Under the pieces are notes generated by a model. It saw only the letters and a program-made list of their open reading frames with translations. It had not been told where the DNA came from and made no database searches. The position numbers and the translations under genes were made by a program. DNA of 9,677 bases from Nitrospinota bacterium. GTDB lineage: Bacteria; Nitrospinota; Nitrospinia; JACRGO01. Where the stretch lies: the NCBI GenBank assembly GCA_016212295.1, contig JACRGO010000031.1:1-9677 (forward strand), written 5' to 3'. Below, one piece after another: positions 1,433-9,677 of this stretch (position 1 is the stretch's first letter; the number at the start of each line of letters is the position of its first letter).

Positions 1433-1498
1433 TAGCCGCGAAGTTCGCGAAGAAACGCCGATAAAAAACTTCGCGGCCCTTGGCGTTCTTGGCGGCTA
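1433..1498. repeat. nonamer inverted array A, likely terminator of the SNF2 operon
   Basis: Left units of 9 nt (CCGCGAAGT, TCGCGAAGA, AACGCCGAT from 1437) are mirrored on the right by CTTCGCGGC, CCTTGGCGT, TCTTGGCGG. Several pairings compete. TAGCCGC (1433-1439) pairs with GCGGCTA (1492-1498). GCCGCGAAGTT (1435-1445) pairs perfectly over 11 bp with AACTTCGCGGC (1467-1477). AACGCC (1454-1459) pairs with GGCGTT (1482-1487). It lies 7 nt beyond the SNF2 stop codon. On the minus strand it is followed by TATTTTCTTT, so a terminator role is plausible. Confidence 0.7.
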
Positions 1499-1505
1499 AA
1501 ACCCT

Positions 1506-4175
1506 TTACAACCCCAGCCGGAAAAGGTCCAGCAGCTCCTTGTTGTCCATTTCCGTGATCCACGCCTCGCCCGCGTCCTGGATAACGTCCGCGGACAATT
1601 TGGCCTTCGATTCCAGCATGGCGTCGATCCTCTCCTCCACCGTGCCCTTGGTGAGGAATTTATGCGCGATCACTTTTTTCGTCTGCCCGATGCGGAAGGC
1701 GCGGTCCGTGGCCTGGTTTTCCACGGCGGGGTTCCACCACCGGTCGAAGTGGACCACATGGTTGGCGGCGGTAAGATTCAGGCCCACGCCTCCGGCCTTG
1801 AGCGACAACACCATGAAGGGGACATAGCCTTCCCCCTGGAATTCCTCCACGATCATTTTCCTTTTTCCCACGGGCACGCTTCCGTGCAGGACCAGGCCCC
1901 TTTGCCCGAATATTCCGGCCAGGAAACCGGCCAGGGGCTCCGTCATTTCCTTGAACTGGGTAAAGACGAGCGCCCTTTCCCTTTTTTCGTGGATGGTCTC
2001 GCAGATTTCCCGCAGCCTGCCGAATTTTCCGCTGTTTTCCTCGTGGAAGTCCCCGGCCCCCAGGTACTGGTCCGGATGGTTGCAGAGCTGCTTGAATTTC
2101 ATCAGGTAGCTCAGGACCATCCCCTTTCTTTGAATCCCTTCCGTATTTTCCAGATTTTTCCTGAGTTCTTCCACCATCTTCCCGTAGAGCAGGACCTGCT
2201 TCTTGCTTAAAGGGGCGTAGGTTTTCATCTCCACCTTGTCCGGCAGGTCGGAAATGACCGATTTGTCGGTTTTAAGACGCCTCAGGATATAGGGCTGGAT
2301 GACCCTCCGCAGCCGGGAATAGCCCTCGGGGTCGTCCTTCAACCTTTTTGAAAAGCGGGTAAACTCGCTGGCGTTCCCCAGCAGACCCGGATTGATGAAG
2401 TCAAAGAGGGACCACAGATCGGTGAGCCGGTTTTCAATGGGCGTGCCGGTGAGGACAAGCCGGTTCCGCGCCGGAAGGTTTTTTATGGCCCTGGTCTGTT
2501 TCGCCCCTGGATTCTTGATGGCCTGGGCCTCGTCAAGAATGACATAATTCCAGGAATAGCCGCTAAGCCATTCATATTTCTGGACCAAGGCATAGGTGGT
2601 GATCACCAGGTCCAGCCCGTCCAGCCATTTTTCTCCCTTGCTCTCCACCTTTTTTCCCGGATGGGCCTCGGGGTGGGCCATGTAATACCTGATATGGGGG
2701 GCGAAGCGGTCCGCTTCCCGGCTCCAGTTGGCGATAAGCGACGCGGGAATGACCAGGAGACTGGCCTTGCCGGGCCTTTGGGATTTCATGGAGTTCAGGA
2801 AGGCCAGGACCTGAATGGTCTTGCCCAGGCCCATGTCGTCGGCCAGACAGGCCCCGAATCCCAGGGAATTTAAAAACGCAAGCCAGTTCAGTCCCTTTTG
2901 CTGATAGGGCCGGAGATTCGCCGTGAACCCGTGGCCCGGTTCCACGGAAGAAATCAACTCCGGGCAGCGCAATTTCCGGACAACGGATTCCAGCCACTGG
3001 CCGTGGGAGGTCTCCACGATTCCGGCCTGCTCCGGCAGGTTCAGAAAGCCTTGGGGACTGAGCTGCAGGCGCAGGGCCTCTCCCAGGCTGAGGCCGTTTT
3101 GCGTCAGTTTCTTCGCCTGTTCATAGGCGTCCAGGGCCTGCCGGAGCTTTTCCGGGTCCACGGCCACCCACCGGTTCTTGATAAAGGCGAGACCCTCGGA
3201 CTCCCGCAAAAGCCGCTTGGCCTCCTCCTCGGTTATGGGCGCATCGCCCAGGAAAAGGCGGGGACTGAAATCCAGGAGGGCGTCCATTCCCACAAAGGAG
3301 GGCTGCGAATCTCCGAGGCTGATATTCACCGTGAGGCGCGAGCCGCCCTTTTTCCACCAGTCGGGGATTCGGCACAGGACGCCGGAGTTCTCGTACACGG
3401 GGACCTCTTTCAAAAAGGCGAATGCCTCCTTGGCCGTCCATGCCAGGGGATGAAAGAGTTCTCCGTTTTCCAGGAGGGCGGCGAGGAAGGGGCTATCCTT
3501 CGCGGCCAGGTGGACCGTGGCAAGGAGCTCCAGCAGCTTGGCGCTGTTTTTCCCGTATTGTTGCAGGGCGGCCTTCAGGGGAAGGTGTTTGGATTTTCCC
3601 GCTTGGTCCAGGTCCGCGGAATAGGTGGCGAGAAAGGCGAAGGCGCCCTCCTCCTTCCGGTTCTCCACCATGTGAAAAAAGACGCGGCCCGCGAGGTGGA
3701 CCTTGGGGCTTAAAGCATGGATAAACTCCTCGACCGTCCCCTTGTATTTTTTTATTGCCTCGGAAAATCCCCGGTTCAGATGCGACCAGAAGGTTTCCAG
3801 CATTTCCCTGTTGAGATATTCCGCCCCCGTCATGATCGGGGCGCTCTCCAGGAACAGGTCCAGTTCCTCCTGGGCCAGTTCCATCACGGCCCGATGGCGC
3901 AGGTCTTCCAGGTCCGGGGTCTTCCTCAGCTTTTCATCGAAGAGACCCGAAAAGTTTCTCCAGTATTCCAGGGAGGCGGAGAGGGGGACCTTCCTGTCGC
4001 TGAAACCGAGAAATAAAAGAAAGGAGGAAAGGCCGGAAAGGAAACGGCGGTGAATTTCCTGTTGAAGAAGGTTTTGGCTTTTGCCGACGGGCTCTTCCGC
4101 CGGACTCCATTCCAGGCGGAGGGAGTGGTCCGGCATGGCCACGGCGCATAATTCCAGGTTCATTGTATTGTGCAT
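1506..4175 (-). CDS. SNF2-family DEAD/DEAH-box helicase (Swi2/Snf2 ATPase)
   Basis: This protein of about 890 residues has all motifs of a Swi2/Snf2 ATPase in its C-terminal half. Motif I is DDMGLGKT (about 447-454), then LLVIPASLIANW (Ia, 474-485), DEAQ (549-552), LTGTPIENRLTDLWSL (III, 576-591), LVFTQF (737-742), GVGLNLTAANHVVHFDRWWNP (V, 797-817) and QATDRAFRIGQ (VI, 822-832). Such enzymes translocate on double-stranded DNA and remodel bound proteins. Bacterial relatives act in transcription recycling (RapA/HepA) and in some defence systems. The N-terminal 420 residues are helical, unlike RapA, and show no SWIM zinc cluster. The preferred start is ATG at 4175, whose A is shared with the stop of the upstream gene (TGATG). 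A TTG at 4178 and an ATG at 4163 are alternatives, and none has a clear Shine-Dalgarno sequence. Translation is probably coupled to the upstream membrane-protein gene. Substrate and process are unknown. Confidence 0.93.
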   Translation of the reverse strand: MHNTMNLELCAVAMPDHSLRLEWSPAEEPVGKSQNLLQQEIHRRFLSGLSSFLLFLGFSDRKVPLSASLEYWRNFSGLFDEKLRKTPDLEDLRHRAVMELAQEELDLFLESAPIMTGAEYLNREMLETFWSHLNRGFSEAIKKYKGTVEEFIHALSPKVHLAGRVFFHMVENRKEEGAFAFLATYSADLDQAGKSKHLPLKAALQQYGKNSAKLLELLATVHLAAKDSPFLAALLENGELFHPLAWTAKEAFAFLKEVPVYENSGVLCRIPDWWKKGGSRLTVNISLGDSQPSFVGMDALLDFSPRLFLGDAPITEEEAKRLLRESEGLAFIKNRWVAVDPEKLRQALDAYEQAKKLTQNGLSLGEALRLQLSPQGFLNLPEQAGIVETSHGQWLESVVRKLRCPELISSVEPGHGFTANLRPYQQKGLNWLAFLNSLGFGACLADDMGLGKTIQVLAFLNSMKSQRPGKASLLVIPASLIANWSREADRFAPHIRYYMAHPEAHPGKKVESKGEKWLDGLDLVITTYALVQKYEWLSGYSWNYVILDEAQAIKNPGAKQTRAIKNLPARNRLVLTGTPIENRLTDLWSLFDFINPGLLGNASEFTRFSKRLKDDPEGYSRLRRVIQPYILRRLKTDKSVISDLPDKVEMKTYAPLSKKQVLLYGKMVEELRKNLENTEGIQRKGMVLSYLMKFKQLCNHPDQYLGAGDFHEENSGKFGRLREICETIHEKRERALVFTQFKEMTEPLAGFLAGIFGQRGLVLHGSVPVGKRKMIVEEFQGEGYVPFMVLSLKAGGVGLNLTAANHVVHFDRWWNPAVENQATDRAFRIGQTKKVIAHKFLTKGTVEERIDAMLESKAKLSADVIQDAGEAWITEMDNKELLDLFRLGL

Positions 4176-5089
4176 CAAGATTTCGGCTGCTGGCTGTCCG
4201 GCTCTCTCCCCGAATTGCCGCCGTTTTTCCTTTCTGAATAAGATGGCTCCCTGCCGGGGTTCAAGCGGTCCATGAGTTCATATACCAGGAATTCATCCAC
4301 CTCGAAAATCGCGGTTTCCTTTTTCAATCCGCTTTCAAGCTCGTAGCCTATACGTATCCAGCCGGACCTGGATATCTCGGAAATCCCCACTCTCTTCAAT
4401 CCGCTTCCCCATCGCAGGAACCTGGATGTATCCTGAAAAATCCTGCTCCTTGAGTGCTCCTCCATTCCCTGGAGTCCCGAAAAAAATTTGGCGACCGTAT
4501 AAATCCTGTTTCTGAATTCATCGATTTCGTCCAGGGACCTCTCCACGGTCTCCCCCATGCCCTTTATAAGATTTATTTGTTCCCTGTCCAACGCTGTTTT
4601 CTTGAGGACCCTGTTCTCGGAGTCCACCAGAAGGACCTCCACTTCCATGTCCCCCTTGATGAAAAAGGTCCTGTCCCAATGAGAGCCGTGGAAAAGGTAC
4701 AGGATAAAAAAGGGGGGGAAAAGGATTTCAGATATCTCGGAAGGCAGGTTGTTCTGGAGCGCCATGAACTGGTTCTTGGAAATGGCGAGATCGCCTTCCT
4801 TTTCCACCAGGGCGAAAAGTTCGCGAAAGGTTGAGACATCCATGGCCTGGGATTTTATTTCCCTCAGGTTGGCCGCGACCTCTTCAATCCGTCCCAGGGC
4901 CGCGCTGTTTTTGTCCTTGAATTCCCACATCCGCCCGATCATTTTCCGGCCGTCATTTTGGCGGAAGAGATTGTAGCCTATCAGCCTCTCCAAAAAATCG
5001 GACCGCGCCTCCAGAAAACAAAGGAGCGTTATCAGCAGCAAAACACAGAGGAAATTCAAATACTTATAAAGGAAAAGGTATATTCTCAT
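4175..5089 (-). CDS. unrecognised membrane-anchored protein, operon partner of SNF2
   Basis: I do not recognise this 304-residue protein. Residues 4-26 form one strong transmembrane helix or signal anchor (LNFLCVLLLITLLCFLE region), preceded by Arg and Lys, so the bulk probably lies outside the cytoplasm or is tethered to the membrane. A second short hydrophobic stretch, ILFPPFFILYLF (122-133), is too short for a sure membrane span. Residues 55-115 and 165-215 are charged and helical. Residues 230-270 look beta-rich, with an IFEVDEFLVYELM end. The last 25 residues are polar and low in complexity (Gly, Ser, Pro, Lys, Glu). No cysteine pairs or catalytic motif stand out. The stop codon overlaps the start of the SNF2 gene, so the two are co-expressed. 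An anchored protein with a DNA translocase is an unusual pair. The ATG at 5089 lacks a clear ribosome site. Confidence 0.7.
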   Translation of the reverse strand: MRIYLFLYKYLNFLCVLLLITLLCFLEARSDFLERLIGYNLFRQNDGRKMIGRMWEFKDKNSAALGRIEEVAANLREIKSQAMDVSTFRELFALVEKEGDLAISKNQFMALQNNLPSEISEILFPPFFILYLFHGSHWDRTFFIKGDMEVEVLLVDSENRVLKKTALDREQINLIKGMGETVERSLDEIDEFRNRIYTVAKFFSGLQGMEEHSRSRIFQDTSRFLRWGSGLKRVGISEISRSGWIRIGYELESGLKKETAIFEVDEFLVYELMDRLNPGREPSYSERKNGGNSGREPDSQQPKS

Positions 5090-5101
5090 TTTTAGAGCGC
5101 C

Positions 5102-5128
5102 GTTTCTTGAAACAAGGATGATTTCATC
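5102..5128. promoter_or_regulatory. two adjacent small palindromes in the divergent gap
   Basis: GTTTC-TT-GAAAC (5102-5113) and GATGA-TT-TCATC (5117-5128) are both perfect 5-bp arms around TT, with centres 15 bp apart. They lie 13-40 nt upstream of the membrane-protein gene start, where a repressor or activator would act. No known regulator is recognised, and the match could be chance. Confidence 0.3.
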
Positions 5129-5167
5129 GTAAGATTGATTTTAGAATAACCGGACATAAAGTGCAAA

Positions 5168-5185
5168 GCAGGCATGTGTGCCTGC
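5168..5185. promoter_or_regulatory. perfect 7-bp palindrome/hairpin between divergent genes
   Basis: GCAGGCA (5168-5174) and TGCCTGC (5179-5185) are perfect inverted arms around TGTG. The site sits in the 218-bp gap between the divergent membrane-protein/SNF2 operon and the AAA+ ATPase gene. It could be an operator that serves both, or a stem in the leader of the ATPase message. There is no T-tract, so it is not a classical terminator. Confidence 0.4.
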
Positions 5186-5204
5186 GCTGCGTTGAATCAA
5201 TAAA

Positions 5205-5307
5205 ATTGGTTCTACTGGTTCTATTAGTTTTATTGGTTATATTGGTTATACCGTTCAACCAATCGAACTAACCGAACCAATCAAACTAATAAAACCAACC
5301 AAACTAC
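5205..5307. repeat. nonamer inverted array B (5 + 6 units)
   Basis: Five 9-nt units read ATTGGTTCT, ACTGGTTCT, ATTAGTTTT, ATTGGTTAT, ATTGGTTAT (5205-5249). A 7-nt centre (5250-5256) follows, and then AACCAATCG, AACTAACCG, AACCAATCA, AACTAATAA, AACCAACCA (5257-5301). A sixth unit, AACTACATG, carries the start codon of the next gene at 5308. The right units are the reverse complement of the left ones at most positions, so an imperfect stem of about 45 bp with a tiny loop can form. Confidence 0.85.
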
Positions 5308-6936
5308 ATGAAAGTTGAAGTATCAAAGGAAAACGTTGAGCGAATCGCGAAGGACCACCACTGCTCTCTTGATGACGCGGCAAGGGCCCATTTAACGGCG
5401 CAGGAGGAGTCCGCCAGGGCCTACAAGGAAACCCTTGCATCCTTGCTGGGAAGGCCCAAGGATGGAGGTCCCGGCGTTCAGATCAAGACCTTCACGCCCA
5501 GGGAAATAAAAAAACATCTCGACAAATTCATCATCGGGCAGGAGGACTACAAAAAGCGGCTCTCCATCGCCGCGGCGTATCACTTCGCCATGCTGAAACG
5601 TCTGCGGGAAAACGGCTCGGAAAAGAAAATCAACCGGTTCCGCAAGAAAAACACCATCATCGCCGGCCCCTCCGGGTCAGGAAAAACCTATTGCGTGGAA
5701 GTCCTGGCCGACCTCCTGCAAGTGCCCACCAATATAGTGGACGCCACGGATTACACCGAGGCTGGATATGTGGGAAAGAACGCCGAGGACATGGTACGGG
5801 AACTAATCGACATGGCCCCGGGAGAAACAAAGGCCGATAGGACGAACTTCATTTCCAGGTTCGGCGGACTGATCTTCATCGACGAGATGGACAAGAAGGC
5901 CAAGGAGTCGGGTCTCATCGGACACGACATCTCCAGGGAAGGCTTCCAGCGGGCGGTCCTTAAGCTGATCGAGCGTAAACACGTGCCCGTTGAAAACCCT
6001 TACAGCCCCATTTCCATGCTGCAGGAGGGACTCGACCAGCGCTCCGGGAAAAAGACGCCCCGGAAAGGGACCATGATCAACACGGAAAACATCCTCTTCA
6101 TTCTTGGCGGGTCCTTCCAAAGGCTTAACGAAGGACTGGAGAGCATAGTGAAGAAGAGGCTGGCCGCGGGGGAAGGCCGGTCCAAGGAAGACGGGAGCAT
6201 AACGGTCCTCGGGTTTAGTTCAACGGAAAAAAAAGAAAAGGAAAAATACAAGAATTACTTCAAGGAGGCTAATTCAGAGGACTTCATCCGCTTCGGCATG
6301 ATACCGGAGCTGGTGGGACGCGCGCCCATAAAGACCTACGTGAATCCGCTTTCCAAGAATGACCTGATCCGGATCATGACCGAGACCGAGGACTCCATAC
6401 TGGACCAATACAAATTTGAATTTTCCCTTTTCGGCATCAAGGTCGAGTTCACGCCCGAGGCGATAGAATACATCGCGGAGAAGGCGGAAAACCAAAAGAC
6501 CGGCGCCAGGGCCCTGGTGAGCGTGATGGAAAACTTCCTGACGGAGTTTCAGTATGAAATCCCGGGCACGAATTTCAAGGAACTGCTCTTCACAAGAGAG
6601 GTGTGCGAAAGGCCCAAGGACGCCATTTTGGAGATGCTGGAGAAATCCCCCTTCGTGGATTACGTGGAATTCTTCAAAACTGAGTGCGGGATCAACCTGA
6701 TCATGGAGCCGGAAGCCCAAGCTTTCGCGGAGGAGTACGCAAGAAAAAACAACTTACAGGTCTTCGAGGCCCTGAAGAAACTCCTTGGCTCCGCCTCGGC
6801 CTTGAATTACATGAATGTGAAAGGCGACTTCACGATCACGCGGGAGATGATAGAAGACCCTCGGTACTTCGACAAACTGTACGTAAAGTGGCACGAAGGG
6901 CAAATCGCGGCGGAGAAGCACGTCGCGCATGGATGA
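5308..6936 (+). CDS. ClpX-like AAA+ ATPase without zinc-binding domain
   Basis: This 542-residue protein is built on the ClpX/HslU AAA+ core. FTPREIKKHLDKFIIGQE (62-79) opens it, followed by Walker A GPSGSGKT (120-127), pore-loop GYVG (153-156), Walker B LIFIDEMD (188-195), sensor-1 ILFILGGSF (262-270), the arginine-finger segment FGMIPELVGRAP (329-340) and sensor-2 TGARALVSVMENF (398-410). These closely track ClpX. It differs in four ways. The N-terminal C4 zinc domain is replaced by about 60 helical residues without cysteine pairs. LGF (301-303) stands where ClpX has the ClpP-binding IGF. RKH (223-225) is followed by an unusual insertion. A C-terminal extension of about 110 residues follows sensor-2. 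An unfoldase role is likely, but the partner peptidase and substrates are unknown. The ATG at 5308 has no Shine-Dalgarno sequence because a repeat array runs up to it. The first confident homology begins near residue 61, so the start is not certain. Confidence 0.9.
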   Translation: MKVEVSKENVERIAKDHHCSLDDAARAHLTAQEESARAYKETLASLLGRPKDGGPGVQIKTFTPREIKKHLDKFIIGQEDYKKRLSIAAAYHFAMLKRLRENGSEKKINRFRKKNTIIAGPSGSGKTYCVEVLADLLQVPTNIVDATDYTEAGYVGKNAEDMVRELIDMAPGETKADRTNFISRFGGLIFIDEMDKKAKESGLIGHDISREGFQRAVLKLIERKHVPVENPYSPISMLQEGLDQRSGKKTPRKGTMINTENILFILGGSFQRLNEGLESIVKKRLAAGEGRSKEDGSITVLGFSSTEKKEKEKYKNYFKEANSEDFIRFGMIPELVGRAPIKTYVNPLSKNDLIRIMTETEDSILDQYKFEFSLFGIKVEFTPEAIEYIAEKAENQKTGARALVSVMENFLTEFQYEIPGTNFKELLFTREVCERPKDAILEMLEKSPFVDYVEFFKTECGINLIMEPEAQAFAEEYARKNNLQVFEALKKLLGSASALNYMNVKGDFTITREMIEDPRYFDKLYVKWHEGQIAAEKHVAHG

Positions 6937-6940
6937 AGCG

Positions 6941-7038
6941 TCATGAGCCATGTGTCATGAGTCATGAGCCATGTGTCATGAGTCATGGGTCATGAGCGCA
7001 CGCCTCACCACACATGACTCATGACACACAACACATGA
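6941..7038. repeat. heptamer inverted array C (8 + 4 units)
   Basis: Eight contiguous 7-nt units run from 6941 to 6996: TCATGAG, CCATGTG, TCATGAG, TCATGAG, CCATGTG, TCATGAG, TCATGGG, TCATGAG. A 14-nt centre follows (6997-7010), then four reverse-complement units: CACATGA, CTCATGA, CACACAA, CACATGA (7011-7038). Positions 6972-6987 and 7013-7028 are a perfect 16-bp inverted repeat with a 25-nt loop. The array begins 4 nt after the ATPase stop and ends just before the coaD ribosome site. It may act as a terminator or message-stabilising hairpin. Confidence 0.88.
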
Positions 7039-7550
7039 CGCTATATAACGGAGACAACATTGCCAGAAAAAAACGTGTGGCCGTATACCCCGGCACCTTT
7101 GATCCAGTGACAAACGGCCACCTGGATATAATGCGGCGCAGCTTGAAGATGTTCGATAAGCTTATAGTCGCCGTTGCCCACAATCCGGGCAAGGACCCGG
7201 TTTTCTCCGTTGAGGAACGGGTGGCGCTTATAAAAAAGGCCACGAAGGGATGGGAAAACCTGCAGGTGGACCATTTTGGAAATCTCCTGACGGATTATAT
7301 GAAGTCAGTGGACGGCCGGGTGATAGTGAGGGGACTAAGGGCCGTGACAGATTATGAATTCGAGCTGCAAATGGGACTCATGAACAGGGCGCTGGACCCC
7401 TCCATTGAAACTATTTTCCTGATCCCTAGCGAGGTGTACTCCTTCCTGAGTTCCCGGATCATCAAGGAAATCGCCCGGCTTAAGGGGAACGTGAAAGGGA
7501 TGGTGCCGGAGGCGGTGGAGTCCCTTTTGAAAAGGAAATTCGGGAAATGA
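7035..7550 (+). CDS. coaD: phosphopantetheine adenylyltransferase (start uncertain)
   Basis: CoaD transfers AMP from ATP to 4'-phosphopantetheine, the fourth step of coenzyme A synthesis, in the cytoplasm. All hallmarks are present. Numbered from ATG 7035, these are YPGTFDP (18-24), the nucleotidyltransferase TNGH (26-29), VRGLRAVTDYEFE (98-110) and the SSRIIKE nucleotide-binding helix (139-145). Length fits the family at about 160 residues. The N-terminus is the odd part. In-frame ATGs at 7014 and 7035 both lie inside the heptamer repeat units and have no ribosome site. A good GGAG (7050-7053) points instead to 7059-7060. There, in-frame ATT (7059) is a very rare start, while the natural TTG (7060) is out of frame by one base across a run of seven A. 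A GTG at 7077 would give MAVYPGTF. The product is sure, but the start is not. Confidence 0.95.
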   Translation: MTLYNGDNIARKKRVAVYPGTFDPVTNGHLDIMRRSLKMFDKLIVAVAHNPGKDPVFSVEERVALIKKATKGWENLQVDHFGNLLTDYMKSVDGRVIVRGLRAVTDYEFELQMGLMNRALDPSIETIFLIPSEVYSFLSSRIIKEIARLKGNVKGMVPEAVESLLKRKFGK

Positions 7551-7570
7551 ATTAACGCGCGTGGAGCGAG

Positions 7571-7612
7571 GTCAATTGACAATTTTCAATTGACAATCGA
7601 CAATTGTAAATG
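7571..7612. repeat. heptamer array D between coaD and the diadenylate cyclase gene
   Basis: Six 7-nt units run without a break: GTCAATT, GACAATT, TTCAATT, GACAATC, GACAATT, GTAAATG. Because CAATTG is its own reverse complement the array folds on itself; for example GTCAATTGAC (7571-7580) is a perfect palindrome, and TCAATTG (7572-7578) pairs with CAATTGA (7587-7593). It lies 20 nt after coaD and ends 9 nt before the GGAG ribosome site of the next gene. Confidence 0.8.
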
Positions 7613-7632
7613 TTTTTTACCGGAGACCGGCC

Positions 7633-8517
7633 TTGCCGCCAAAGGAAAAAGACCTGAAAAAAATCATCATCACCTCGGCCATCTCAATAGCCACGAAACT
7701 GAAGGCCGCCTCCATTCTGGTGTGCTCCGACACCCTGGAAGACCTGGATGTCTTCAAGGAGGTCGTTAAAAAACATAAACTAATTTTCGCGACGCGCGAC
7801 ACAGGAGCTCCGCTGAAGGGATCGGATTTCATAAAGAACGTCCTGTTGCTGCCCAACATGAGTTTCAACCGGATAGGAAGGATCAAGCTGGCCATTATAA
7901 AGGGAATATCAGCTGGCCTGGTCAAGAACGGGGACAAGATGGTTTGCGTCTCGGGCGTGCCTAAATCGAGCCATCTTGACAACATCCTCGTCCTTGACAT
8001 AGGGAAGGAGTCAGAGGTCTTCACCTCGGCTGAAGCCATGATGGGCATGGGAAAGACCAATCCAATGGTCTTCGAGGCCGCCTTGAACCTGGCCTTGGAT
8101 CTGTCGCACCAGGGCAGGGAGGGGAAGCCGGTTGGGACCATTTTCGTGATAGGGGACCATGAGAAGGTGACACAGCTCTCCCGTCAAATGATCATTAATC
8201 CCTTTAGAGGCTACTCCGATGAGGAGCGCAATATCCTGGACCAGAACCTCAGGGAAACCATAAAGGAATTTTCAGCCATTGACGGGGCCTTCATAATCCG
8301 GGAGGACGGCACATTGATCGCCGCCGGACGCCATCTAAGCGCCGCGTTGGAGTCGGAGGACTTTCCCAGGGGCCTTGGAAGCCGCCATCTGGCCGCCGCG
8401 GGGATTACCTCCGTTACCGAGGCTGTCGCCATAGTTATTTCAGAGAGCACCGGCTCGGTGCGGATTTTCAAGGGCGGACGGATTTTCATGGAGTTGGAGA
8501 AGTCAACGAAACAATAG
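7633..8517 (+). CDS. diadenylate cyclase, DacZ-like domain layout
   Basis: This 294-residue protein ends in a DisA_N/DAC domain, which joins two ATP into cyclic di-AMP. The DGA motif is at 217-219 (AIDGAFIIREDGTLIAAG) and GSRH-L at 249-253 stands for the usual TRHR, followed by an alternating hydrophobic/Glu core (TEAVAIVISESTG, 262-274). Residues 1-130 form an alpha/beta domain (IATKLKAASILVCSDT, GLVKNGDKMVCVSGVP) that resembles the pyruvate-kinase C-terminal-like domain of archaeal DacZ. There are no membrane helices as in CdaA and no DNA-binding tail as in DisA. Leu for the second Arg of RHR is a deviation that may affect ATP binding. The start is TTG at 7633, with GGAG 7 nt upstream. The gene follows coaD and precedes a two-CBS-domain protein, a possible sensor of its product. 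The DAC assignment is firm; the N-terminal domain match is an inference. Confidence 0.85.
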   Translation: MPPKEKDLKKIIITSAISIATKLKAASILVCSDTLEDLDVFKEVVKKHKLIFATRDTGAPLKGSDFIKNVLLLPNMSFNRIGRIKLAIIKGISAGLVKNGDKMVCVSGVPKSSHLDNILVLDIGKESEVFTSAEAMMGMGKTNPMVFEAALNLALDLSHQGREGKPVGTIFVIGDHEKVTQLSRQMIINPFRGYSDEERNILDQNLRETIKEFSAIDGAFIIREDGTLIAAGRHLSAALESEDFPRGLGSRHLAAAGITSVTEAVAIVISESTGSVRIFKGGRIFMELEKSTKQ

Positions 8518-8532
8518 ACGGGGAGAACTTAT

Positions 8533-8545
8533 CGCCCTTCGGGCG
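8533..8545 (+). terminator. small GC hairpin after the diadenylate cyclase gene
   Basis: CGCCC (8533-8537) pairs with GGGCG (8541-8545) around a TTC loop, 15 nt after the stop codon. ACTTTAAAG follows, not a clean T-tract. This may be a weak terminator or a 3' end stabiliser. Confidence 0.35.
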
Positions 8546-8555
8546 GACTTTAAAG

Positions 8556-8611
8556 AGTCATTGGTCATTAGGGTGTCTTCCTGCTTATAAATGACTATTG
8601 GCCAAATGACT
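8556..8611. repeat. short heptamer inverted array E
   Basis: AGTCATT and GGTCATT (8556-8569) are mirrored by AATGACT (8590-8596), ATTGGCC (8597-8603) and AATGACT (8605-8611). The spacing on the right is broken by one extra A at 8604. AGTCATTGG and CCAAATGACT can pair apart from one bulge. This is the most degenerate of the six arrays, but it shows the same plan of forward heptamers, a centre (about 20 nt) and reverse heptamers. It lies in the gap between the cyclase and CBS genes, upstream of the CBS promoter. Confidence 0.6.
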
Positions 8612-8727
8612 ATCACCTGATATCGCTAACATGTAACCGCTTGATTCATAAACGAAAAAAATGGAAATTCCTATACTATAATCCAAAATAAAAAAAGAGT
8701 ACCCGGCCCAGGTTTGCCCTGGTATTG

Positions 8728-8756
8728 TTGACAAAAGCGGACAATTCCTCTAAAAT
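8728..8756 (+). promoter_or_regulatory. strong sigma-70-type promoter of the CBS gene
   Basis: A consensus -35, TTGACA (8728-8733), is followed by a 17-bp spacer and -10 TAAAAT (8751-8756, 5 of 6). Transcription would start near 8763, leaving a leader of about 43 nt. The ribosome site AAAAGGA (8791-8797) is 8 nt before the ATG. This is the best promoter in the window and indicates that the CBS gene has its own transcript although it follows the cyclase gene. Confidence 0.8.
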
Positions 8757-8805
8757 TTCGCTTTCCAACTGATTAATTTATCTCACCTTTAAAAGGATTG
8801 CCGCG

Positions 8806-9192
8806 ATGACAGATTTTAAGACTCTTTTGAGCGTAAAGAAGTTCGTCAGCACCAAGTTCGCCAAGGCCAAGGAGTCGGACACCATTACCCTGGGCGCTAA
8901 AAAAATGGACAAGGAGAATGTGACCTGCCTCCTGGTCCACAAGGGAAGCAAGTTGAACGGGATCATAACGGAGAGCGACATTGTCCGAAAGGTGATCGCG
9001 GCCGGCCATGACCCAAAAAAAACTGAATTAAAATCAGTCATGACTCAGAGCATTATTTACGTGGAAGCCGACGAGTCCCTCTTTGACGCCAAGAAGAAAA
9101 TGGAGGAGCACGGCGTGAGGCATCTGGTGGTCAAGGAAGGTGACAATATAATCGGCACGGTTTCGGTGCGTGAGCTGGCGGGCAATCTATAG
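8806..9192 (+). CDS. two-CBS-domain protein
   Basis: This 128-residue protein consists only of a tandem CBS pair (a Bateman module). CBS1 covers about residues 13-68 with the GIITESDIVRKVIAAG motif (52-67). CBS2 covers about 76-127, with VMTQ (78-81), MEEHGVRHLVVKEGDNIIGT (99-118) and VSVRELAG (119-126). Such modules bind adenine nucleotides, and stand-alone examples in Gram-positive bacteria (DarB/CbpB) bind cyclic di-AMP. The gene lies next to a diadenylate cyclase gene, so a sensor role is an attractive inference, but the sequence alone cannot tell c-di-AMP from AMP, ATP or other ligands. ATG 8806 has a good ribosome site and its own strong promoter. No output domain is attached, so it must act on a partner protein. 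Confidence 0.92.
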   Translation: MTDFKTLLSVKKFVSTKFAKAKESDTITLGAKKMDKENVTCLLVHKGSKLNGIITESDIVRKVIAAGHDPKKTELKSVMTQSIIYVEADESLFDAKKKMEEHGVRHLVVKEGDNIIGTVSVRELAGNL

Positions 9193-9204
9193 TTCGTCGG
9201 CGTC

Positions 9205-9237
9205 ACCGGGCGCGGTTATCAGGAAATACCCGGTTTT
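9205..9237 (+). terminator. possible terminator after the CBS gene
   Basis: ACCGGG (9205-9210) pairs with CCCGGT (9229-9234) and TTT continues to 9237. The loop of 18 nt is long and the T-tract short, so termination would be weak. The position, 13 nt after the stop codon, is right. Confidence 0.35.
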
Positions 9238-9247
9238 ACCTCATTAA

Positions 9248-9306
9248 GCGCCATGCGCGGCGCGCCATGCGTTGTGCGCTCAAAACACATGACTCATGAC
9301 ACATGA
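9248..9306. repeat. compound heptamer array F
   Basis: Five 7-nt units beginning with GCG run from 9248 to 9282: GCGCCAT, GCGCGGC, GCGCCAT, GCGTTGT, GCGCTCA. After AAA, three more units follow, CACATGA, CTCATGA, CACATGA (9286-9306). The second part with its flanks (ACACATGACTCATGACAC... to ATGACGC) matches the right half of array C at 7010-7041, except that array C has one additional heptamer, CACACAA. GCGCTCA is also the reverse complement of TGAGCGC in the centre of array C (6993-6999). So F and C are related copies. Confidence 0.75.
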
Positions 9307-9390: not shown

Positions 9391-9528
9391 ATGGAAAAAA
9401 ACAGCCGTTTAACACTCCCGCAAGCATTACAAAATACCGCAAACCGTGCCCCCGAAGCCGGAATAGGCTATATCCAGGGCGATGGCGCGGTGATATTTCA
9501 AACCTACCCTCAGCTTCACTGCCATTAA
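9391..9528 (+). pseudogene. 5' remnant of an adenylate-forming (AMP-binding) enzyme gene
   Basis: An open frame of 45 codons starting at ATG 9391 encodes TLPQALQNTANRAPEAG (residues 8-24), GIGYIQGDGAVIF (24-36) and QTYPQL (37-42), then HCH and a stop. This is the typical N-terminal beginning of fatty-acyl-AMP ligases and NRPS/PKS starter AMP-binding domains, where the frame would go on for 500 or more residues. Here it ends exactly where the sequence turns AT-rich, at about 9517, which suggests insertion of a mobile element. Leucine TTA, ATA and CAA codons are more common than in the neighbouring genes, hinting at a foreign origin. There is no clear ribosome site, and a TATAAT (9387-9392) overlaps the ATG. 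The family assignment rests on about 35 residues and is tentative. Confidence 0.45.
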
Positions 9529-9677
9529 GTTAAGGGAAAAAGCCTTTGTTTTCAATTAGTTAGGCGGTCTAGATTTTACATTAACTATATGGTAATATGT
9601 ATTTATTATGTATTAATTATTAAATTTATAGTAAAAAAAGGATGATATAATGGCTCAAAAAACTCCTTGAGCGAATA
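9517..9677 (+). mobile_element. possible left end of an insertion sequence
   Basis: From CACTGCCATTAAGTTAAGGG (9517-9536) the sequence becomes strongly AT-rich up to the window edge, in contrast to the GC-rich genes before it. It breaks the reading frame of the AMP-binding enzyme remnant after residue 42. The first bases look like the terminal repeats of IS4-type elements as I remember them; I could not confirm this. The right end and the target duplication lie outside the window. Confidence 0.4.
9650..9677 (+). pseudogene. possible transposase start with a frame break
   Basis: A good ribosome site (AAAGGA, GGA at 9640-9642) stands 7 nt before ATG 9650, inside the suspected insertion sequence. 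The frame reads MAQKTP and stops at 9668. With one more A in the run 9657-9662 it would read MAQKNSLSE and stay open to the window edge, which looks like a transposase N-terminus. Only 28 nt are visible, so this is speculative. Confidence 0.22.

Follow-up and report, generated by a model that had tools for sequence, protein, structure and literature searches.

Why should six intergenic gaps of one short contig each hold an array of short repeated units, and why should several of these arrays be mirrored into inverted halves? The window analysed here is the whole of contig C210, 9,677 nt of a Nitrospinota draft genome (3.74 Mb in 237 contigs), a fragmented MAG whose contigs frequently terminate in the repeats described below. 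It carries genes for an MqsA-like protein, a DUF4258 protein, YefM/YoeB, an SNF2 helicase, a hypothetical protein, a ClpX-like AAA protein, coaD, a DacZ-type DisA and a CBS protein. The top match of the DisA, at 76%, is in 'Nitrospinia bacterium OFTM173' (L029), and the next matches are also to Nitrospinota. Both ends of the window lie in dispersed repeats, and the assembly broke at these places: positions 1-101 are identical to the start of contig C4, and positions 9509-9656, at the 3' end, match the first bases of C11 and C224 at 96-98% identity.

To assess the periodicity of the six arrays we used autocorrelation at lags 3-15 against 2000 dinucleotide shuffles. The exact or near-exact unit period that a preliminary description of this DNA had given to all six held for four of them, with none of the 2000 shuffles reaching the observed values: the mirrored 9-nt array B (about 5205-5304; lag 9, 0.70), which stops immediately ahead of the ClpX-like gene and its ATG 5308; array C (6940-7038; lag 7, 0.68), a mirrored GTCATGA-type hairpin with apex GAGCGCA in the gap between the ClpX-like gene and coaD; array D (7571-7612; lags 7 and 14, 0.71 and 0.75), a GTCAATT-type 7-nt array in the coaD/disA gap; and array F (9248-9306; lag 7, 0.62). 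It did not hold for array A (1433-1498), an imperfect CGCSAAG hairpin with 9-10 nt spacing whose best lag was within chance (lag 10, 0.38; 411/2000 shuffles), nor for the periodicity of array E taken by itself (lag 7, 0.41; 185/2000 shuffles). The mirrored halves described for A, B, C and E were confirmed by folding, the fold energies of all four lying below those of shuffles (z -3.5, -6.9, -3.6 and -2.6, respectively); array D was borderline (z -2.4, 8/300 shuffles) and array F was not significant by itself (z -0.9). No Rfam family was matched in the window. Array B reaches within a few bases of the ClpX-like ATG, and no ribosome-binding site is evident in between. The longest coaD frame begins at an ATG inside array C (window positions 7014-7059); a TTG near 7059 that follows GGAGA is more likely to be the start, which would place array C just upstream of the ribosome site.

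Array E lies within a dispersed element of 155 nt on the plus strand (8525-8679; GAACTTAT + CGCCCTTCGGGCGGACTTTAAAGA ... AAAAATGGAAATTCCTATACTAT), here called M1-M2 after its two conserved modules. The left module M1 (8533-8556) forms a perfect hairpin, CGCCCTTCGGGCG, and the right module M2 occupies 8657-8679, both with 0 mismatches. Between them stand a left arm of two units, GTCATTG GTCATT (8557-8569), one unit shorter than in the consensus copy L086, and a right arm, AATGACTATTGGCCAAATGAC (8590-8610), with one unit fewer and one extra base relative to L086. The limits of the window copy follow from the conservation profile of the element, which begins GAACTTAW and stops CTATACTAT, and from copies that may stand head to tail (L106/L107). 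The left module CGCCCTTCGGGCGGACTTTAAAGA has 75 copies in its own genome and the right module 92, with 0 for either reversed pattern, and the left module was found 0 times in 59 related genomes, the same-genus one included.

We read 70 copies of the element, with M1 and M2 no more than 420 nt apart, and followed the flanks of M2 as far as 1.5 kb. All 70 have one left end in common, and at least three different hairpins follow it: the arms are of GAACATC type in 35 copies, of GTCATTG type in 19 (including window E), of a non-heptameric CCCCC type in 12 and of other types in 4. Hairpins also nest, since a GTCATGA hairpin of the type of arrays C and F sits within the loop of the GAACATC copies L100, L103, L111, L118, L139, L141 and L148. 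Two M1-M2 copies, L084 and L105, have a GGGCACGAYGCATCGTGCCC palindrome in place of about ten left-arm bases, at the same position.

Arrays A, B, C and F belong to dispersed families as well, those of A and B being smaller. The apex GAGCGCA, matched on the minus strand at 6982-7002 in array C and at 9264-9284 in array F, defines a hairpin family with 26 pattern matches (some of them palindromic sites matched on both strands) against 0 for the reversed pattern; F lies in the orientation opposite to C and aligns with the gap of C by BLASTN at 90.6% over 32 nt. Arrays related to B, with 9-nt units, occur on about eight other contigs, several with plus and minus arms, and here the pattern control is weaker (49 matches vs 11 for the reversed pattern). 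For array A, 13 related double-unit sites were found genome-wide, and none with the pattern reversed. In place of unrelated arrays that are not copies of one element, the window thus shows members of dispersed families: C and F are one hairpin family, E is one of 75 copies, and B and A each have further copies.

To ask how general the architecture is, we used samples covering about 15% of the genome. A first sample of 570 kb and 390 gaps, which included six contigs picked for a heptamer, gave 101 tandem matches vs 1.0 in shuffles; in it BLASTN connects 208/390 gaps, and dispersed repeats make up 34% of gap bases. The final tally was confined to 34 unselected contigs (452 kb, 81 kb of gaps), with the window and the six heptamer-picked contigs excluded, and the excess of short tandem arrays over shuffled gaps was borne out there, with 79 arrays vs 1.9 in dinucleotide shuffles. 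Their periods are not evenly spread: 55 of the 79 fall at 7/14/21 nt, followed by 10/20 (6), 8/16 (4), 9/18 (3) and 11/22 (3), so that the proposed rule of 7 or 9 nt does not hold, and what stands out is a strong excess of 7. Inverted halves likewise proved to be a genome-wide trait. In the full sample, a reverse-complement partner lies no more than 200 nt away for 37/71 lag-7 arrays, compared with 0 when the surroundings are shuffled and 2 when a random other gap is used. In the whole genome, a stretch of two and a half GTCATTG units, with at most 2 mismatches allowed, is matched at 188 sites, and its reverse at 0. Lag-7 arrays are rarer in divergent gaps (3/43 vs 46/186, Fisher p 0.012) and not significantly enriched in convergent ones (p 0.13), gap orientation being taken from simple longest-ORF gene calls.

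Related genomes were compared in gene order and in array content. In L029 the hypothetical gene, coaD and disA are adjacent without arrays, and the spacing between coaD and disA is 4 nt (GATC; G001/L029) vs 82 nt in the window, where array D lies between them. The ClpX-like gene, which lies between B and C in the window, is absent at the corresponding place in L029, and the CBS gene, between E and F in the window, is about 7 kb away. The arrays thus mark sites of gene-order difference, in a comparison with one distant relative that implies no direction. Arrays are sparser in the same-genus genome G001 (21 over 34 kb of gaps), and some of them are 8-nt arrays with opposed arms; in G008, G013 and G015, which represent another family, arrays of 7 and 8 nt are numerous, differ in unit sequence and are in several cases mirrored; and samples of four other relatives contained no arrays. 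The mirrored-array architecture extends beyond the M1-M2 element family, and the mirrored 8-nt arrays of G001, G008, G013 and G015 exclude the suggested selection for odd-length units.

How the arms change was read from dispersed copies within one genome, the set holding no close strain. Among the GTCATTG copies, 10/16 indels are of 7 or 14 nt, and arm lengths are congruent modulo 7 in 14/14 copies for the left arm and 12/14 for the right. Copies with the CCCCC hairpin have only indels of 1, 50 and 61 nt; because these copies share the same frame and have no 7-nt step, such steps belong to the repeats and not to the element as a whole. The two arms change independently: left and right arm lengths correlate at r -0.43 over 14 GTCATTG copies and at r -0.18 over 15 GAACATC copies, for which arm lengths rather than gap lengths were compared because pairwise alignment gave many small gaps where loops were replaced by another hairpin. 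Single-arm changes are common (L091, L115, L119, L125), and the changed copies other than window E mostly differ in a single arm. These changes are accounted for by slippage of whole units within each arm, and not by arm-to-arm copying.

The units themselves drift with the period kept. At L065:2621-2720 and L051:11185-11270, unit identity falls from 0.75-0.84 at a distance of one unit to 0.19-0.35 at nine, nearing chance over eight or nine units, and the period holds throughout, so that a period can be inherited beyond the sequence that carried it. The first of these loci is an unmirrored 7-nt array in which the unit moves stepwise from CCTCCGT to CCTGATA in constant phase. We also considered whether unit change is dominated by transitions; the comparison of arms gave 85 transitions vs 112 transversions, a weak excess only, and this idea was dropped.

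Dispersed hairpins with heptamer arms explain most of the mirrored arrays of the preliminary description, and the explanation that we consider probable is unit-wise slippage in the arms of small hairpin elements that are likely to be mobile. On this explanation, the arrays would form the stems of small hairpin elements, non-coding and scattered over the gaps, and each stem arm would be a minisatellite with units mostly 7 nt long. Each arm would gain or lose whole units singly, through replication slippage or unequal recombination; point mutations would let the unit sequence drift as the period stays. The elements would spread as dispersed copies, probably mobilised in trans; identical element ends can enclose different hairpins, and hairpins can nest in the loops of others. 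The sequences themselves show the dispersal, the shared ends around different inner hairpins, the 7-nt steps, the independence of the arms, the drift and the nesting; from these we infer active mobility, slippage as the step of change and the absence of a cellular function. That no terminal inverted repeat was recognised and no mobilising gene found speaks against this explanation. The scarcity of arrays in divergent gaps is what would be expected of insertions tolerated away from promoters.

An unlikely alternative, and the one that fares best, is that a dedicated enzyme or a polymerase footprint fixes the unit at about 7-8 nt and builds the arrays in hairpin arms. The dominance of period 7 across many unit sequences (36 different heptamers in 71 arrays) fits such a footprint, as does the lead of 7 and 8 nt in the three genomes from another family. 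Mrazek et al. (2007; as cited in PMC4679880) also proposed slippage where the polymerase contacts 7 nt, which we count in its favour. Against it, however, drift within single arrays means that the period may be inherited, 58/71 arrays chain together at one mismatch, so that independent origins may be few, and the mirror is not bound to 7, since 13/30 arrays with other periods are mirrored too, a similar proportion. We doubt that a constraint of hairpin replication, through the footprint of a polymerase or hairpin-processing enzyme, sets the 7-8 nt units in mobile hairpin arms; if it did, same-period arrays of unrelated sequence would arise repeatedly across Nitrospinota and other phyla. It is quite improbable that the arrays are selected RNA or DNA hairpins, such as transcription terminators or mRNA-stability elements, with the repeats a by-product: the low fold energies of A, B, C and E and the shortage of arrays in divergent gaps would suit this reading, but the arms carry 197 mismatches in 28 hairpins and change length independently, the window holds no Rfam family, and convergent gaps lack a significant enrichment. 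Hairpin-templated copying, the slippage first suggested for these arrays, in which one arm templates the other by template switching or gene conversion and both grow together, is very unlikely, since arm lengths are un- or negatively correlated and single-arm changes are common, even though many arms are similar in register (0.81 vs 0.71 with units permuted, the register being picked as the best one), which makes some coupling possible, window E lost one unit in each arm relative to L086, and both arms of L049:2122-2195 carry a variant in the same unit.

Slippage within dispersed hairpins can be set beside several known systems. According to Mrazek et al. (2007), as cited in PMC4679880, heptanucleotides are the commonest long simple repeat class in many repeat-rich bacteria. 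The TAACTGA repeats of Beggiatoaceae are direct and immediately precede start codons, one case in 170 being inverted; on how heptamer arrays come to lie in many gaps, that work states that 'no mechanism is evident' (PMC4679880). Like these LSSRs and the cyanobacterial STRRs, the arrays described here are intergenic tandem heptamers beyond chance expectation with 7 nt as the commonest period, and TAACTGA-type units occur here too (L066:194-231). Unlike the TAACTGA sets, about half are mirrored, unit types are many, units drift and arrays sit in dispersed elements; the pattern of direct repeats upstream of start codons is not seen, with 37/71 arrays mirrored and divergent gaps array-poor.

The BrickBuilt MITE of Porphyromonas gingivalis, with 23-nt units in one direct array, terminal inverted repeats and 19 copies (PMC4596501), is likewise a species-limited, dispersed, small intergenic element with a tandem repeat between a conserved leader and tail, but the element described here has 7-nt units in two opposed arms and one frame with different hairpins. 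The M1-M2 element shares with MITEs that it is short, non-coding and present in numerous dispersed intergenic copies. Terminal inverted repeats were not recognised (GAACTTAWCGCC vs the reverse complement ATAGTATAGGAA gives 7/14 matches at best), and no constant target duplication was seen among the flank pairs listed. We call the M1-M2 elements MITE-like, and not MITEs, because their heptamer arms are opposed, their hairpins are interchangeable and they have no recognisable terminal inverted repeats. REP/REPIN sequences with RAYT transposases (PMC3116915, PMC3733652) are also small dispersed gap hairpins, possibly moved in trans, but the M1 hairpin is without a GTAG or CGTC tag. A search for a mobilising gene found none, nor did a RAYT link emerge: M1, M2 and the C apex are absent within 1.5 kb of the two Y1 transposase genes. 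At L240 (G000:C211 near 14616-14861), a RAYT-like Y1 transposase gene has many GCGGATTTGCAATCCGC-type palindromes on both sides, in a REP-RAYT-like arrangement.

That bacteria favour heptamers and that bacterial MITEs can contain minisatellites has already been published; interchangeable heptamer-armed hairpins in one frame look like a new variation, and in the open-access literature we found no paper describing these elements, none on Nitrospina repeats and nothing under BOX. With dozens of one-frame copies that carry different heptamer arms, the genome offers a natural replicate experiment for measuring how units are gained and lost, how they drift and how the two arms are coupled, and spread inside mobile hairpins is a possible route by which heptamer arrays may have come into so many gaps.
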